Source: Microbacterium oleivorans (lineage in GTDB: Bacteria > Actinomycetota > Actinomycetes > Actinomycetales > Microbacteriaceae). Taken from it: a DNA stretch of 64,000 nucleotides. The DNA lies in contig NZ_MAYO01000003.1 in the NCBI RefSeq assembly GCF_001691565.1, positions 1,464,766-1,528,765 of the forward strand. Reading direction: 5' to 3'. Positions 53,695 through 59,323 of this stretch are shown here, piece by piece (positions within the stretch are counted from its first letter, which is position 1; every line of letters begins with the position of its first letter). The notes beneath the pieces were generated by a model. That model had not been told where the DNA came from. It did not search any database and saw only the letters and a program-made list of their open reading frames with translations. Position numbers and translations under genes: made by a program.

Positions 53695-54291
53695 TCAGGT
53701 GGACGCGATGAGCAGCGGCACGACCTGCTCGAGTCGCGACTGCATCGCCCTGGCGGCCTGACGCTCCGTCAGCCGTTCGAGCGCGGACTGCACGCTGCAC
53801 TGCTCGGAGACGTCGAGCAGCAGCGCCGCCGCGTCGGCCACCGGCATCCGAAGCGGCAGCCCGCGGAGCTCGCTCACCTCGCGGATGATCGTCTCGACCC
53901 GGCCCAGTATCTGCGCCCGCCACGCGAGGAACGCCTCCGCCAACCGCGGATCGCGTAGCGCCTGCGTCCGCACCTCGCTGAGCAGTTCGGGCTCCATCCG
54001 CTCAGCGAGCGACATGTCGGCGATCTGGCGGACGAGGTCGATCGGATCCTCGGTGCCCGAGAGTCGCTTCACGCGGACCGACACCTCGTCGAGCTTGTCT
54101 TCCGAGAGCTGGGTGATGAGCGCGAGGAAGAGCTCGTCCTTCGACTCGAAATTGGAGTAGAACGCACCGCGGGTGAAGCCGGCGCGTTCGCAGATGGTCT
54201 CGACGGATGCCGCGTCGAGCCCGACCTCCGCGAACACCTCGTGTGCGGCTTCGAGCAAGCGAGCCCGCGTGTTCTCGCGACTTCTCGCCAT
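53695..54291 (-). CDS. TetR-family regulator of the MMPL/YhgE operon
   Basis: 198 residues. HTH: LLEAAHEVFAEVGLDAASVE followed by ICERAGFTRGAFYSNFESKD ELF-type helix 4. C-terminal helices (ADAAALLLDVSEQCSVQSAL) form the ligand pocket. The FTRGAFYSNF form is typical of AcrR-type repressors of efflux operons. Two abutting perfect palindromes lie between it and the divergent MMPL gene. AAGGA ten bases before the ATG. Confidence 0.92.
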   Translation of the reverse strand: MARSRENTRARLLEAAHEVFAEVGLDAASVETICERAGFTRGAFYSNFESKDELFLALITQLSEDKLDEVSVRVKRLSGTEDPIDLVRQIADMSLAERMEPELLSEVRTQALRDPRLAEAFLAWRAQILGRVETIIREVSELRGLPLRMPVADAAALLLDVSEQCSVQSALERLTERQAARAMQSRLEQVVPLLIAST

Positions 54292-54333: not shown

Positions 54334-54351
54334 CGATACACATGTGTATCG
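54334..54351. promoter_or_regulatory. TetR operator 1, perfect 18-bp palindrome
   Basis: CGATACACATGTGTATCG is fully self-complementary and lies between the divergent TetR and MMPL genes. It shares the GATACA/TGTATC half-site with the abutting palindrome. Confidence 0.8.
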
Positions 54352-54367
54352 GATACAGCGCTGTATC
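54352..54367. promoter_or_regulatory. TetR operator 2, perfect 16-bp palindrome
   Basis: GATACAGCGCTGTATC is fully self-complementary and follows the first palindrome without a gap. The centres are about 17 bp apart, allowing two dimers side by side. The MMPL ribosome-binding site (AGGAG) follows 20 bases downstream. Confidence 0.8.
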
Positions 54368-54398: not shown

Positions 54399-57275
54399 GT
54401 GTCCACCATCCTCTTCACGCTCGGCCGATGGGCCTACCGTCACTCGTGGCGCGTGCTCATCGCCTGGATCCTGCTGCTCGGAATCGTCGGGGGCGGCGTC
54501 GCGCTCTTCATGAAGGGGACCGACAACTCCTTCGCGATTCCCGGTACCGAGGCCCAGCAGGGGCTCGAGCTGCTGAATCGCACCTTCCCGCAGGCCAGCG
54601 GAGCGAGTGCGCAGCTGATCGTGGTCGCCCCCGAGGGTGAGAAGGTGACCGATCAGCCCCTCCGCGGCGAGATCGACGACCTCGTCGCGGCGCTGGGCGA
54701 CATCGACGGCGTCACCTCGGCGACCTCTCCCTTCGACAAGATGGTCACCGGCCTCGTCGCGGATGACGACCGCGCCGCTCTCGTGCAGATGCAGTTCGAC
54801 GGGAACTCCACCGAGGTCTCCGACGCGACCATCGACGCGGTCGAGAAGGCGGCCGCCGACTTCCACGAGGCGCTCCCCGCCGGTGCGGAGTCCGCCCTCG
54901 GCGGCGACCTGTTCGCGGCATCCATCCCCGCCCTGTCGATCGTCGAGGTCATCGGCGTCCTCGTTGCCCTGTTCGTCCTGATCGTGACGTTCCGCTCGTT
55001 CGCCGTCGCGTGGTTCCCGCTCGTCAGCGCGCTCATCGGCGTCGCTCTCGCAATCGCGCTCATCTTCCTCGCGACGGCGGTGACGACGATCTCGTCGACG
55101 ACGCCCATGCTCGCCGTCATGCTGGGTCTCGCCGTCGGCATCGACTACGCGCTGTTCATCGTGTCGCGACATCAGGATCAGGTCCGCGGCGGCATGGATC
55201 CCGAGGAATCCGCCGCCCGCGCCGTCGGCACGGCCGGGTCCGCCGTGGTGTTCGCCGGCGTGACGGTCATGATCGCCCTCGTCGGACTCAGCATCGCCGG
55301 CATCCCGTTCCTCTCGACGATGGGCATCGCCGCCGCCGTCGCCGTGGCCGTCGCCGTGGCCGTCGCCGTCAGCCTCACCCCGGCGCTCCTCGGCTTCGCG
55401 AAGGGCCGCGTCGTCGGCTGGGGCGGGAAGATGCTGCAGCGCGGCGTGGCGACACGTCGCCGTCGCCGCGGATCTGACGCGGACGACGCCGACGAAGATG
55501 CGCCCGAGCCGGAGCCCGCACCTTCCGCCGGCCCCGTCGCCCCGGCACGACCCAACCGCTGGGTGATGCTGGTGACGCGGCATCCGATCATCGCCACCGT
55601 CGCGGTCGTCGTCGGACTGGGCGTCATGGCGATCCCGTCCGCGAATCTGCATCTCGCGCTGCCGAACGCCGGCGTCCAGCCGCCGTCGAGCCAGGCGCGT
55701 CAGGCCTACGACCTGAACGCGGAGTACTTCGGCGCCGGGTCGAACGGCCCGCTCGTCATGACCGGCACCATCGTCACGTCCACCGATCCACTCGGGCTCA
55801 TGGACGACCTCAAAAAGGAGGTCGAGGCGATCCCCGGCGTCGAGCGCGTCGCCCTCGCCACCCCCAACGAGACCGCCGATACGGGCCTGATCCAGATCGT
55901 GCCGACCACGGCGCCCGACGATCCCGCGACCGCGGACCTCGTGCGCGAACTCCGCTCGCACCACGACGAGTGGCAGAAAGAGTACGGCGTCGACCTCAAG
56001 GTGACGGGCTTCACCGCCGTCGGCATCGACGTGTCCGACCGTCTCGGCGCCGCCCTGCTGCCCTTCGGCATCTTCGTGGTCGGCCTGTCGTTCATCCTGC
56101 TGATGATCGTCTTCCGCTCGATCTGGGTTCCGCTGAAGGCGACGCTCGGCTACCTGCTATCGATCCTCGCCGCCTTCGGCGCCGTCGCTGCGGTGTTCGA
56201 GTGGGGCTGGCTCGCCGACCTCCTGCATGTGACACGTACAGGCCCGGTGATCAGCTTCATGCCGATCATCCTCATGGGCGTGCTGTTCGGACTCGCGATG
56301 GACTACGAGGTCTTCCTCGTCTCTCGCATGCGCGAGGACTTCGTCCATGCCGTGCGCGCCCGCGGCGGACGGGCGAGCCGCGAGACGGCGATCGCGGCCG
56401 TACGCTCCGGCTTCACCGCCTCGGCGCGCGTCGTCGTGGCTGCAGCCGTCATCATGTTCGCGGTCTTCGCCGCCTTCGTCCCCGAAGGCGACAGTTCGAT
56501 CAAACCGATCGCCCTGGGTCTCGCCGTCGGCATCGCCGTCGATGCCTTCCTCGTCCGCATGACCCTGACCCCGGCGGTCATGGCTCTGCTGGGCGAGAAG
56601 GCATGGTGGATGCCGCGCTGGCTCGAGCGGCTGCTCCCCAAGGTCGACATCGAGGGCGAGGCGGTCGAGCACGAACGCGCCCACGCCCACTGGCCCGAGC
56701 CCGATTGGAACGGTGCGCTCGCGGCGGAGGACCTCGAGGTGCGAGCCGAGTCGACCGGCACCGACGTCGTCCTCTTCTCGGGTGCGAGCGCTCGGGTCGC
56801 GGAGGGCGGCACGCTCCTCGTGACGGCCGCCGATCCGCATGCTTCGCGGGCATTCCTGCTGACCGTCGCGGGTCGCATCGCGCCGACCGCCGGCCTGCTG
56901 CGCGTGTCGGGGCATCTGCTGCCGGGCCGTGCCGCATGGGTCCGCGCGCACGTCTCCGTCGCCGACCTCAGCGGCGCCGACGCTCCGCTCGCCGACCTCC
57001 GCCGCGCACTTGCGGGCCGCACCCGGTTCGTCGTGATCGTCGGCCTCGACGCCCTCACCGGCGCCGCCCGCGACCAGGCCGCCGCGCTCCTGCGCGACGC
57101 GACCAACGCGGTCGCGGCGAAGGCCGGCGCACTGACCGTCGTCACCTCGGCCCGCGACGTCGAATCGGCCCGCGGCATCCTCGCGGATGCCTACCGACCC
57201 GATCCGGACCTCGTGCGACTCGCCGTCTCCACCCCCCTCGCCGTCGACACCCCCACCCAGGTGACTCCCTCATGA
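54399..57275 (+). CDS. MMPL-family RND transporter fused to a degenerate ABC ATPase-like domain
   Basis: 958 residues. Twelve transmembrane helices in two halves, each after an extracellular loop; signature AVGIDYALFIVSRHQDQVRG in the first half and GLAMDYEVFLVSRMREDFVH in the second, as in MmpL lipid/drug exporters. After helix 12 (residue 740) about 180 further residues look like an ABC ATPase that has lost its Walker A: GTLLVTAADPHASRAFLLTV, FVVIVGLDALTGAARDQAAALL in the Walker B/D-loop place and LTVVTSARDVESARG in the H-loop place. GTG with AGGAG upstream. It overlaps the YhgE gene by ATGA. Confidence 0.9.
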   Translation: MSTILFTLGRWAYRHSWRVLIAWILLLGIVGGGVALFMKGTDNSFAIPGTEAQQGLELLNRTFPQASGASAQLIVVAPEGEKVTDQPLRGEIDDLVAALGDIDGVTSATSPFDKMVTGLVADDDRAALVQMQFDGNSTEVSDATIDAVEKAAADFHEALPAGAESALGGDLFAASIPALSIVEVIGVLVALFVLIVTFRSFAVAWFPLVSALIGVALAIALIFLATAVTTISSTTPMLAVMLGLAVGIDYALFIVSRHQDQVRGGMDPEESAARAVGTAGSAVVFAGVTVMIALVGLSIAGIPFLSTMGIAAAVAVAVAVAVAVSLTPALLGFAKGRVVGWGGKMLQRGVATRRRRRGSDADDADEDAPEPEPAPSAGPVAPARPNRWVMLVTRHPIIATVAVVVGLGVMAIPSANLHLALPNAGVQPPSSQARQAYDLNAEYFGAGSNGPLVMTGTIVTSTDPLGLMDDLKKEVEAIPGVERVALATPNETADTGLIQIVPTTAPDDPATADLVRELRSHHDEWQKEYGVDLKVTGFTAVGIDVSDRLGAALLPFGIFVVGLSFILLMIVFRSIWVPLKATLGYLLSILAAFGAVAAVFEWGWLADLLHVTRTGPVISFMPIILMGVLFGLAMDYEVFLVSRMREDFVHAVRARGGRASRETAIAAVRSGFTASARVVVAAAVIMFAVFAAFVPEGDSSIKPIALGLAVGIAVDAFLVRMTLTPAVMALLGEKAWWMPRWLERLLPKVDIEGEAVEHERAHAHWPEPDWNGALAAEDLEVRAESTGTDVVLFSGASARVAEGGTLLVTAADPHASRAFLLTVAGRIAPTAGLLRVSGHLLPGRAAWVRAHVSVADLSGADAPLADLRRALAGRTRFVVIVGLDALTGAARDQAAALLRDATNAVAAKAGALTVVTSARDVESARGILADAYRPDPDLVRLAVSTPLAVDTPTQVTPS

Positions 57276-59323
57276 CTCTCTCCATCGAACGCGCGCAGAC
57301 CCGGCGCCCCATCTCGTGGCTCACGCTCCTCGGCGTGCTCCTCCTGCCCGCTGTCATCGGGGGCCTCCTCGTGGCGGCTCTCTACAACCCCACCGAACGC
57401 CTCGATGCACTGAACACCGCGATCGTCAACAACGACGAGCCGGTGGAGGTCAATGGGCAGACGACACCGCTCGGGCGCCTGCTCACGGCGGGGCTCGTCG
57501 AAGGCTCGAAGGACCTCGAGAGCAACCTCACCTGGACGATCTCGAATTCGACGGACGCGAAGGAAGGCCTCGAAGACGGCACCTATGACGCGATCGTGAC
57601 GATCCCGAAGAACTTCTCCGCGGCCGCGACCTCGACGGCTCCTGGAAAGACCCCCGAGCGGGCGACGATCGAGCTCACCTCCTCGCCCGACGCGCGCATC
57701 GTCGACGACGCCATCACGACGCAGGTGACCTCGACCGCGGCATCCGTCCTCGGTCAGCAGCTCACCACGGGCTACCTCGAGAACGTGTTCCTCGGCTTCA
57801 CGACCCTGAACGAGCAGCTGGGCAAAGCAGCCGACGGCGCCACCCAGCTCGCCGACGGCGCGAAAGGGGCAGCCGACGGCGCCTCGAAGCTTGCGGACGG
57901 CGCCTCGAGCGCGGCCGATGGCGGGTACTCGCTGGCCGACGGACTGCGGAAGCTCCAGAACGGCGCGAACCAGCTCGCCGGGGGTGCCGCAGCCACGTCG
58001 AAGGGGCTCTCGGAATGGTCGGCCGGCGCTCGTCCGATCGCCGACGGAACGCAACAGCTCGCGGACGGGCTGACCCAGGCCGCGGAGCAGACCTCGGCGA
58101 TCCCGGCGATCCCCTCCGACGTCGTCGAAGGCCTCAAGGCCCTCACCGCAGACGGCGAGCAGAACCGCGAGGCGGTGACGGGCATCGTCGACACCCTGAC
58201 CGCCGCGGCGAATGCGTGCGACCCCGCGCAGGCCGGCGCGGAGCTCTGCGACCAGCTGACGGATGCCGCGGCTGACGCGACGTCCGCCCTCCCGGCCCTG
58301 CAGGCCACGGTCGGCGACTCGAAGAAGCTTGCCGAGAACATCGACGCGCTCGCGAACTTCGGTCCGAGTCTGACCGAGGGTCTCCGCACCTCGGCCGCCG
58401 CCGCCGAGAAGCTCGCGGGCGGCATGGGCAAGCTGGCCGACGGCGCAGAGCAGCTCTCGTCCGGCGCAGGTCAGCTGTCGACGGGTGCACGCGACCTCGC
58501 GACCGGTGCCGGCGCCGCGGCGGAGGGCGGCGACAAGCTCGCGGCCGGTGTCGACGCGCTCGCCGGCGGTGCCGGGGAGCTGTCGACCGGTGTCGGCAAG
58601 CTCGCCGACGGCACGGATGACCTCGCCGGCGGCCTCGACAAAGCGGTCGACGGCGTGCCGTCGTACACGAAGAACGAGGCGAAGGACCTCGCCTCGATCG
58701 TCGCCGACCCGGTGGTGGCCGACGGTACGGGCAGCTCGCTGTTCGGCGCATCGGCCGTGCCGCTGCTGGCCACCCTCGCCCTGTGGTTCGGCGGTCTCGC
58801 GTCGTTCGTGGTCCTGCGCGCAGTCCCGCGGACCGCGCTGTCGTCGCGTCGGTCCTCGGCCGCCCTCGCGCTCCGCGCGCTCGCACCGGGCGTCGTGATC
58901 GGCGCGCTGCAGGGCGCCCTTGTGGCCGTCGTCGTCCAGCTCGCGGCCGGATACGACGCGGACAGGTGGTGGCTCTTCGCCGCCATGTGCGTGCTCGCCG
59001 GTGTCGCGTTCGCCGCAGTCAACCACGCGCTGGTGGCACTGTTCGGGGGCATCGGCCGCTGGATCTCGGTGCTCGTCGGCGTCATGGCGCTGGCGACCGG
59101 CATCGTGTCCACCGTGCCGGGCACCCTGCTCGATGTCGCGGGGCTCCTGCCGACGGCACCGGCTTACACGTCCATGCTGGCGGCGCTGACGGATGCCGGC
59201 GGGGGCGCGACGGCCGCGGTGGGCCTCGTGCTCTGGACGGTGCTCGCCATCGGCGCGGGCATCCTCGCCGTCGCGCGGCACCGCTCCACCTCGGCCCGGG
59301 CCGTGCTGACGCAGCCGGCCTGA
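57272..59323 (+). CDS. YhgE/Pip domain membrane protein
   Basis: 683 residues. N-terminal helix (LLGVLLLPAVIGGLLVAALY) then LDALNTAIVNNDEPVEVNGQ, the Pip/YhgE extracellular signature. Two long arrays of LADGA/SxGAxQL-type eleven-residue repeats (about residues 185-260 and 370-460) form an extended extracellular rod. Five C-terminal helices (LLATLALWFGGLASFVVL, LALRALAPGVVIGALQGALV and others) match ABC-2-type permeases. Usually works with an ABC ATPase; here the fused MMPL/ATPase-like protein is the only partner. Ends before a strong hairpin. Confidence 0.92.
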   Translation: MTLSIERAQTRRPISWLTLLGVLLLPAVIGGLLVAALYNPTERLDALNTAIVNNDEPVEVNGQTTPLGRLLTAGLVEGSKDLESNLTWTISNSTDAKEGLEDGTYDAIVTIPKNFSAAATSTAPGKTPERATIELTSSPDARIVDDAITTQVTSTAASVLGQQLTTGYLENVFLGFTTLNEQLGKAADGATQLADGAKGAADGASKLADGASSAADGGYSLADGLRKLQNGANQLAGGAAATSKGLSEWSAGARPIADGTQQLADGLTQAAEQTSAIPAIPSDVVEGLKALTADGEQNREAVTGIVDTLTAAANACDPAQAGAELCDQLTDAAADATSALPALQATVGDSKKLAENIDALANFGPSLTEGLRTSAAAAEKLAGGMGKLADGAEQLSSGAGQLSTGARDLATGAGAAAEGGDKLAAGVDALAGGAGELSTGVGKLADGTDDLAGGLDKAVDGVPSYTKNEAKDLASIVADPVVADGTGSSLFGASAVPLLATLALWFGGLASFVVLRAVPRTALSSRRSSAALALRALAPGVVIGALQGALVAVVVQLAAGYDADRWWLFAAMCVLAGVAFAAVNHALVALFGGIGRWISVLVGVMALATGIVSTVPGTLLDVAGLLPTAPAYTSMLAALTDAGGGATAAVGLVLWTVLAIGAGILAVARHRSTSARAVLTQPA

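Follow-up and report, generated by a model that had tools for sequence, protein, structure and literature searches.

A degenerate ABC ATPase-like tail on an MMPL pump encoded directly before a YhgE/Pip permease in Microbacterium oleivorans

The window analyzed here is a stretch of 64,000 nucleotides from Microbacterium oleivorans (assembly GCF_001691565.1, contig NZ_MAYO01000003.1, positions 1,464,766 to 1,528,765), and our subject is a pair of genes in it that encode an MMPL pump with an ATP-binding cassette (ABC) ATPase-like tail and a YhgE/Pip permease. Coordinates are window positions, and features lie on the forward strand unless stated otherwise. The MMPL gene is a single open frame that runs from a GTG start at 54399 to a stop at 57275 and encodes 958 amino acids. 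The YhgE/Pip gene (57272..59323) follows directly, its start overlapping the MMPL stop by 4 bp (ATGA). An earlier note on this DNA had placed an MMPL gene and then a YhgE gene at 54399-59323, and these coordinates proved right. A search yielded 78 related loci, of which 70 carry Microbacterium in their titles; the loci counted here and below come from the upper part of ranked profile searches, so that the counts apply to the best matches and not to genomes at large. YhgE was present in 77 of the 78, the sole miss (L057) ending at a contig end, and the ATGA overlap was found in all 72 related loci with a complete YhgE.

The pump body (residues 1-750, 54399..56648) is of the MMPL type within the RND superfamily, the whole protein matching the Pfam MMPL model PF03176 at 268.9 bits against a cut-off of 20.5 (E 6.9e-80). 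Two Asp-Tyr (DY) pairs, Asp249-Tyr250 (55143..55148) and Asp635-Tyr636 (56301..56306), were recognized by motif conservation and were kept in 76 of 76 related loci. We take these pairs to form the expected proton relay, as in MmpL3, where such pairs carry protons. The body shares PF03176 and the two DY pairs with MmpL3-type pumps, and its match to the MmpL3 model itself lay far under the cut-off (185 of 1400 bits). MmpL3 is not known to carry an ABC-like tail or to work with a YhgE.

The C-terminal end of the pump is a linker followed by a pseudo-ATPase tail (residues 751-958, 56649..57275), in which a domain of about 175 residues, from approximately residue 770 to 944, is predicted to have an ABC fold by AlphaFold2, VIA-align, and hhalign. 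Residues 751-947, folded with 32 relatives, gave an AlphaFold2 model of high confidence (predicted local distance difference test [pLDDT], 92.8; predicted template modeling score [pTM], 0.90). When this model was searched with Foldseek, all 50 matches listed were ABC proteins or chains of ABC-containing complexes, with a best E value of 9.3e-8. VIA-align superposed the tail on LolD (9rlj_D) with a Z score of 16.8 and a root mean square deviation (rmsd) of 2.7 Å over 163 residues (model residues 20-194), and on an ECF ATPase with 2.2 Å over 157 residues; 987 of the 998 aligned chains had a Z score of at least 8. By its predicted fold, the tail is an ABC ATPase, that is, a nucleotide-binding domain (NBD). 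The proposal of an ABC ATPase-like tail, made earlier from the letters of the DNA, is thereby upheld by structure prediction as well as by the profile alignment described next.

As a single sequence, the tail matched no Pfam or NCBIfam ABC model, no ABC_tran at E values up to 5, and no PDB chain under an E value of 0.1 (best, 0.12). With no significant ABC match from plain sequence search, the link was made through fold, profiles, and intermediates. Using hhalign, the tail profile was aligned to a profile of 16 stand-alone YhgE-linked ATPases with a probability of 99.1 and an E value of 1.7e-18, the alignment showing a gap in the tail at the place of the helical subdomain. The stand-alone profile in turn reached 524 PDB sequences at E <= 0.001, with ABCA ATPases on top. 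A profile of 33 tail sequences, compared directly with the PDB, listed mostly ABC ATPases (best E 5.9e-4) and reached CbiO and the NBD1 of CFTR at an E value of about 0.001; two non-ABC chains, 3fa3 and 7osv, stood within its first ten rows. Besides other fused tails, of which those of the Microbacterium loci L008-L010 are 79-84% identical, the closest relatives of the tail were stand-alone YhgE-linked ATPases. Judged from these profiles, the tail is also by descent an ABC ATPase, of the YhgE-linked kind.

The motifs of the ATP site were counted over 77 rows, comprising the window and 76 related loci, with the split rows L056 and L057 omitted. The earlier note had reported that the tail has lost Walker A, and the aligned octamer indeed reads AADPHASR (56826..56849); the pattern GxxxxGK[ST] occurred in 0 of the 77 rows, even with Arg allowed for Lys, and in the window's own group the P-loop belongs to the regions of the tail that vary. 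The Walker B position, here FVVIVGLD (57027..57050 by alignment), and the H-loop had both been called recognizable. This description fared less well: Walker B can be recognized only by position, with Val in the window for the Asp that 68 of the 77 rows have and Gly for the catalytic Glu, which was found in none of the 77, and the H-loop His is not in the window, where the stretch reads TVVTSARDVE. For a His anywhere in the compared H-loop stretch, the counts were 3 of 77 among related rows, 3 of 87 among family rows, and 1 of 20 among order rows. Three canonical ABC ATPases from the same loci served as controls and scored 3/3 for Walker A, for Asp, for Glu, and for the H-loop His, confirming that the motif columns were read correctly. 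Between the Q-loop position and Walker B, the canonical ATPases have 78 residues, whereas the window has 26 (60 or fewer in 77 of 77 related rows), indicating that the helical subdomain with LSGGQ is gone from the window tail. The ABC ancestry first suggested for the tail stands; the domain is smaller than it had been described. By these motifs, the tail cannot be an ordinary ATPase.

The same arrangement was found well beyond the closest relatives. A survey of MMPL-YhgE neighbors for the same fusion had been suggested, and among further fused loci all 112 had YhgE as the next gene downstream, in the same orientation. These loci comprise 88 from the window's family (the window and other Microbacterium included), 20 from other families of the order, and 4 from outside the order, and they span 12 family codes and 61 genus codes. 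A tally of 377 of 398 profile matches was not used as a fusion prevalence because the weak matches include ordinary ATPases. As controls, 20 untailed MMPLs, chosen mostly for short frames, were inspected in stretches of 9.5-12 kb, and 0 of 20 had a tail and 0 of 20 had a YhgE. The linkage of the fused pump to YhgE is close to absolute in the loci examined. A possible exception comes from Saccharopolyspora hirsuta, in which adjoining YhgE and MMPL locus tags were both upregulated with cholesterol, 3.82 and 3.33 fold (PMC9782250); this MMPL could be untailed. The response hints at lipid-like compounds, as a weak lead. In another source, a table places MmpL4 and YhgE far apart (PMC12584985).

Conservation along the tail was concentrated in two places. 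The linker motif IEGEAVE (56649..56669) has E2, G3, E4, A5, V6, and E7 invariant in 33 rows. Ahead of the Q-loop position lies a near-invariant block, RVSGHLLPGRAAWVRAHV (56901..56954), which we propose as a docking surface on the basis of its variant count and invariant columns: the 18-mer, RVxGHLLPxRAAWVRAHV in consensus, had 10 variants in 77 rows, the commonest occurring in 50, and the best-kept positions over 50 family rows include G82, V86, G88, and P92 of this stretch. In ABC proteins, the stretch ahead of the Q-loop adjoins the seat of the membrane subunit's coupling helix. Ratios of nonsynonymous to synonymous substitution rates (dN/dS) were computed for 45 listed pairs (44 distinct, one being listed twice), and the medians were 0.083 for the pump body, 0.193 for YhgE, and 0.258 for the tail, whose values ranged from 0.085 to 0.46 and were below 1 in every pair. 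On these ratios, the tail is constrained, but more loosely than the pump. The tail might instead be a relic, a fused ATPase that lost its job and is tolerated as a spacer that keeps yhgE translation coupled via the ATGA overlap. Such a spacer would be expected to have lost Walker A and the catalytic Glu, as in 77 of 77 rows, and to change faster than the pump or YhgE, as it does; the overlap, present in all 72 loci, would be reason enough to keep the frame open. It is harder to reconcile with a dN/dS below 1 in every pair tested, with so few variants of the 18-residue block, with a domain that is still predicted to fold with high confidence, or with fused loci in 61 genus codes, and we regard a relic as unlikely.

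The YhgE/Pip permease was identified by the N-terminal model TIGR03061 (pip_yhgE_Nterm, NCBIfam), matched at 114.5 bits with a cut-off of 96.15, by ABC2_membrane_3 (45.9 bits), and by fold comparison; the C-terminal model TIGR03062 was matched at 58.8 bits, with a cut-off of 102.2. In the VIA comparison, on which the ABCG likeness rests and which used a moderately sure model, the membrane part was aligned with ABCG1 with a Z score of 16.2 over 215 residues (rmsd, 3.7), and among the 50 matches listed the rows were ABCG, PDR-type, ABCH, or ABCA chains. The modeled membrane part of YhgE is that of an ABCG-like (type V) permease. Between its second and third long hydrophobic helices, a loop with a short helix (58814..58870) is a candidate coupling helix by model and conservation: the short helix, residues 520-524, sits in the model where a coupling helix would, 36 rows show no variation at L523, R526, and S529, and a similar, moderately conserved consensus was found in all six groups compared, fused and stand-alone. 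With the DY pairs of the pump and these features of YhgE, both proteins look functional. The ABCG and ABCA exporters resemble the present system on both sides, in the ABCG1-like membrane part of YhgE and in the YhgE-linked ATPase profile, which scored best against ABCA chains. They differ in that the NBD here is carried by a different pump and lacks an ATP site, and in that YhgE has a long extracytoplasmic helical stalk.

This stalk raises the possibility that YhgE is a scaffold or a wall-spanning stalk and no transporter, the tail only positioning it beside the pump. A scaffold or stalk role has been proposed for EsaA/YueB relatives, and YhgE has nine LxxG heptad stretches, long helices at residues 143-461 of the model, and a match to T7_esaA_Nterm that lies under the cut-off (51.1 of 122 bits, E 1.1e-13). 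With a membrane part that resembles a full ABCG permease domain and a coupling-type loop that has been kept, we give a pure scaffold a limited chance of being right.

Stand-alone ATPases of the same lineage were examined in 36 loci fetched, and in 36 of 36 the ATPase lay directly before YhgE on the same strand. These actinobacterial ATPase-YhgE/Pip pairs (L228-L247 and L268-L283) share this gene order with the fused tail and differ from it in that the ATPase is not fused to an MMPL, has the helical subdomain, and often keeps Walker A; one locus, L233, has an MMPL fragment about 4 kb away. The motif comparison covered 21 rows from the order (20 loci and L176, from the M. oleivorans genome itself) and 16 from the class. 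A strict Walker A was found in 19 of 21 order rows and 8 of 16 class rows, and the Walker B Asp in 20 of 21 and 11 of 16, respectively. Among the class rows off the strict pattern (L268, L269, L271, L272, and L280-L283), six differ at the first Gly only, and L280 and L283 have lost Walker A throughout. The catalytic Glu, the H-loop His, and LSGG[QEM] were each found in 0 of the 37 stand-alone rows, at odds with the earlier premise that YhgE normally pairs with a working ABC ATPase. Decay, as read from these motifs, is not confined to fused forms, and ATP binding with no fast hydrolysis may already have characterized the YhgE-linked lineage before any fusion.

Outside the window, the same genome has a second YhgE (L176:6056-8730), preceded by an unfused NBD-like open reading frame (ORF). 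This ORF belongs to the same lineage, lacks Walker A, matches no Pfam ABC model, and pairs with L244 on the tail tree (support, 100/99). Walker A is thus absent from the partners of both YhgE copies found in this genome. The second locus bears on another reading, in which the tail would form a heterodimeric NBD pair with an intact ATPase encoded elsewhere and YhgE would still be driven by ATP. Pairs of a degenerate and a live NBD are well known in ABC exporters, CFTR and TM287/288 among them, and the NBD1 of CFTR and TM287 are like the tail in having an NBD fold with lost catalytic residues. Those domains, however, retain the helical subdomain and function alongside a live site, whereas the tail has neither Walker A nor the subdomain and forms part of an MMPL protein. 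The subdomain would be needed to sandwich ATP against the partner's Walker A, no gene lies between MMPL and YhgE, and the NBD-like neighbor at the second YhgE locus also lacks Walker A. Judged from these two YhgE loci of the genome, such a pair is very improbable.

Relatives of the fused pump retain more of the ATP site. In L284 and L285, from another order of the same class, an MMPL is fused to a full-length NBD with GPSGSGKT and is followed by YhgE. Short tails with Walker A were found in L286, L212, L157, L168, L167, L100, L102, L108, and the L099 group; of four such tails scanned, those of L168, L157, and L100 passed the Pfam ABC_tran cut-off and that of L108 did not. Walker A was present in 14 of 87 family rows, in 5 of these with Lys. 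Compared by sequence, the relatives are a decay series, from full-length with Walker A through short with Walker A to short without. An insert the size of the helical subdomain was kept in 23 of 87 family rows, and 0 of these 23 had Walker A. They form a long-tail clade (L123, L126-L130, and L132-L148) in which the insert was kept and Walker A is gone, the reverse of the order of loss in the short Walker A tails; L127, the single long-tail row scanned, had no Pfam match. The tails with Walker A bear on the possibility that the window tail is a regulatory sensor, gating the pump in response to a nucleotide or some other small ligand that it would still bind. Many stand-alone partners also keep Walker A without the Glu, and binding without fast hydrolysis may have been an intermediate stage. 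Walker A is nevertheless missing in 77 of 77 rows of the window's own group and the P-loop there is variable, which makes a sensor quite unlikely.

The history of the fusion was addressed with two trees. The tail tree (130 rows, with Walker A and insert columns masked) separated stand-alone from fused forms with weak support (60/46). On it, four tails lacking Walker A (L105, L113, L115, and L116) group as sister to the Walker A-bearing L100 and L102 in a starred clade (99/90), pointing to a recent loss of Walker A. The fused tails of L213, L215, L218, and L168 were placed nearer the stand-alone ATPases (80/89 and 60/46), so a second fusion event is possible, with weak support. The MMPL tree came from a quick search with the Shimodaira-Hasegawa-like approximate likelihood ratio test (SH-aLRT) only and held 62 fused and 20 untailed rows, with fused loci present as short pieces (L099, L100, L105, L106, L108, L111, and L149) omitted. 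All 62 fused rows fell in a set with 99% support, which also holds the untailed L329-L332. A single early fusion, which we infer, is compatible with this tree. Under a no-regain rule, the MMPL tree implied 10 losses of Walker A as drawn, at least 7 with branches below 80 collapsed, and at least 3 with branches below 95 collapsed. The four untailed MMPLs inside the fused-pump set, L329-L332, are from one family and have no YhgE nearby; a joint loss of tail and YhgE is possible.

We consider it fairly probable that the tail is a former YhgE-linked ATPase that was fused to MMPL and now serves as a pseudo-ATPase dock linking YhgE to the pump. A retained function of the tail is argued from a dN/dS below 1, the near-invariant block, the DY motifs, the kept YhgE loop, and the ABCG-like membrane part; from the sequences we infer both the docking on YhgE and the energy coupling, in line with the suggestion of the earlier note that the proton-driven pump may have replaced ATP hydrolysis and left the domain as a docking module. 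A YhgE-linked ATPase subunit would have been fused to the MMPL C terminus and later reduced to a pseudo-ATPase. The remaining face of the tail (the GHLLPxRAAWVRAHV block) would grip the ABCG-like YhgE at its cytoplasmic coupling loop through the old NBD-permease interface, holding MMPL and YhgE in one complex. The proton-driven MMPL would move or release a lipid-like substrate, and YhgE with its helical stalk would serve as a conduit or flippase attached to the pump and set in motion by it, not by ATP. Proton-driven movements of the MMPL, or substrate hand-over, would replace the ATP cycle, and the extracytoplasmic helices of YhgE would extend the path through the wall.

Several observations weigh against this reading of the tail as a dock. 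With a dN/dS of 0.26, compared with 0.08 for the pump body, the tail changes roughly threefold faster, which fits partial decay. Untailed MMPLs exist, and a tail is thus not needed for MMPL function as such. The invariant block could instead be turned toward the MMPL that carries it or toward another copy of the tail. The YhgE model is weak to moderate overall (pLDDT, 71.4; pTM, 0.44), and a Foldseek search with it gave no match under an E value of 0.001.

A further step, that an RND pump mechanically drives an ABC-type permease via a fused, ATP-free NBD, with the proton motive force substituting for ATP hydrolysis, is one that we put forward tentatively and hold to be doubtful. If it were true, versions of one hybrid machine, graded from ATP-binding to ATP-free, would exist among the actinobacteria. 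RND/MMPL pumps are usually set apart from ABC transporters as machines with a different power source, and here the two are joined in one ORF; the fusion stands next to the kind of permease that its NBD came with, and living relatives preserve graded forms. This raises the testable question of whether an ABC permease can run, or be steered, without ATP via a partner pump, and it suggests where a physical partner of YhgE/Pip might be sought. All of the parts come from known fold families, and the novelty would lie in their combination; in the literature searched, mostly papers outside subscription, no description was found of an MMPL-ABC fusion or of MMPL and YhgE as one system.

Upstream of the pump, on the reverse strand, lies a divergent gene for a TetR-family regulator (53695..54291, PF00440, E 2.3e-16). 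It was present in 76 of 78 related loci, and the two misses (L047 and L056) are loci cut at a contig start. Between the TetR and MMPL genes, two neighboring 16-bp palindromes of the form GATACA-N4-TGTATC were read from the sequence as putative TetR operators, operator 1 being GATACACATGTGTATC (54335..54350) and operator 2 GATACAGCGCTGTATC (54352..54367). Around the TetR start, the strict pattern GATACA-N(2-5)-TGTATC was found in 60 of 76 related stretches and a looser one, ATACR..YGTAT, in 72 of 76. The TetR gene and the twin palindromes suggest induction by a substrate-like ligand, with TetR presumably repressing the operon from the two operators until the ligand appears.

Among the related loci, L018, on a 5.4-kb contig in a record titled Stenotrophomonas maltophilia, and L016, titled Planococcus, hold typical Microbacterium-like operons, and these labels from other phyla likely reflect contamination or mislabeling. 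In L170:5128-8141, the MMPL N-terminal part and the tail stand in two separate open frames, a split that is a frameshift or an assembly error in the L170 genome.

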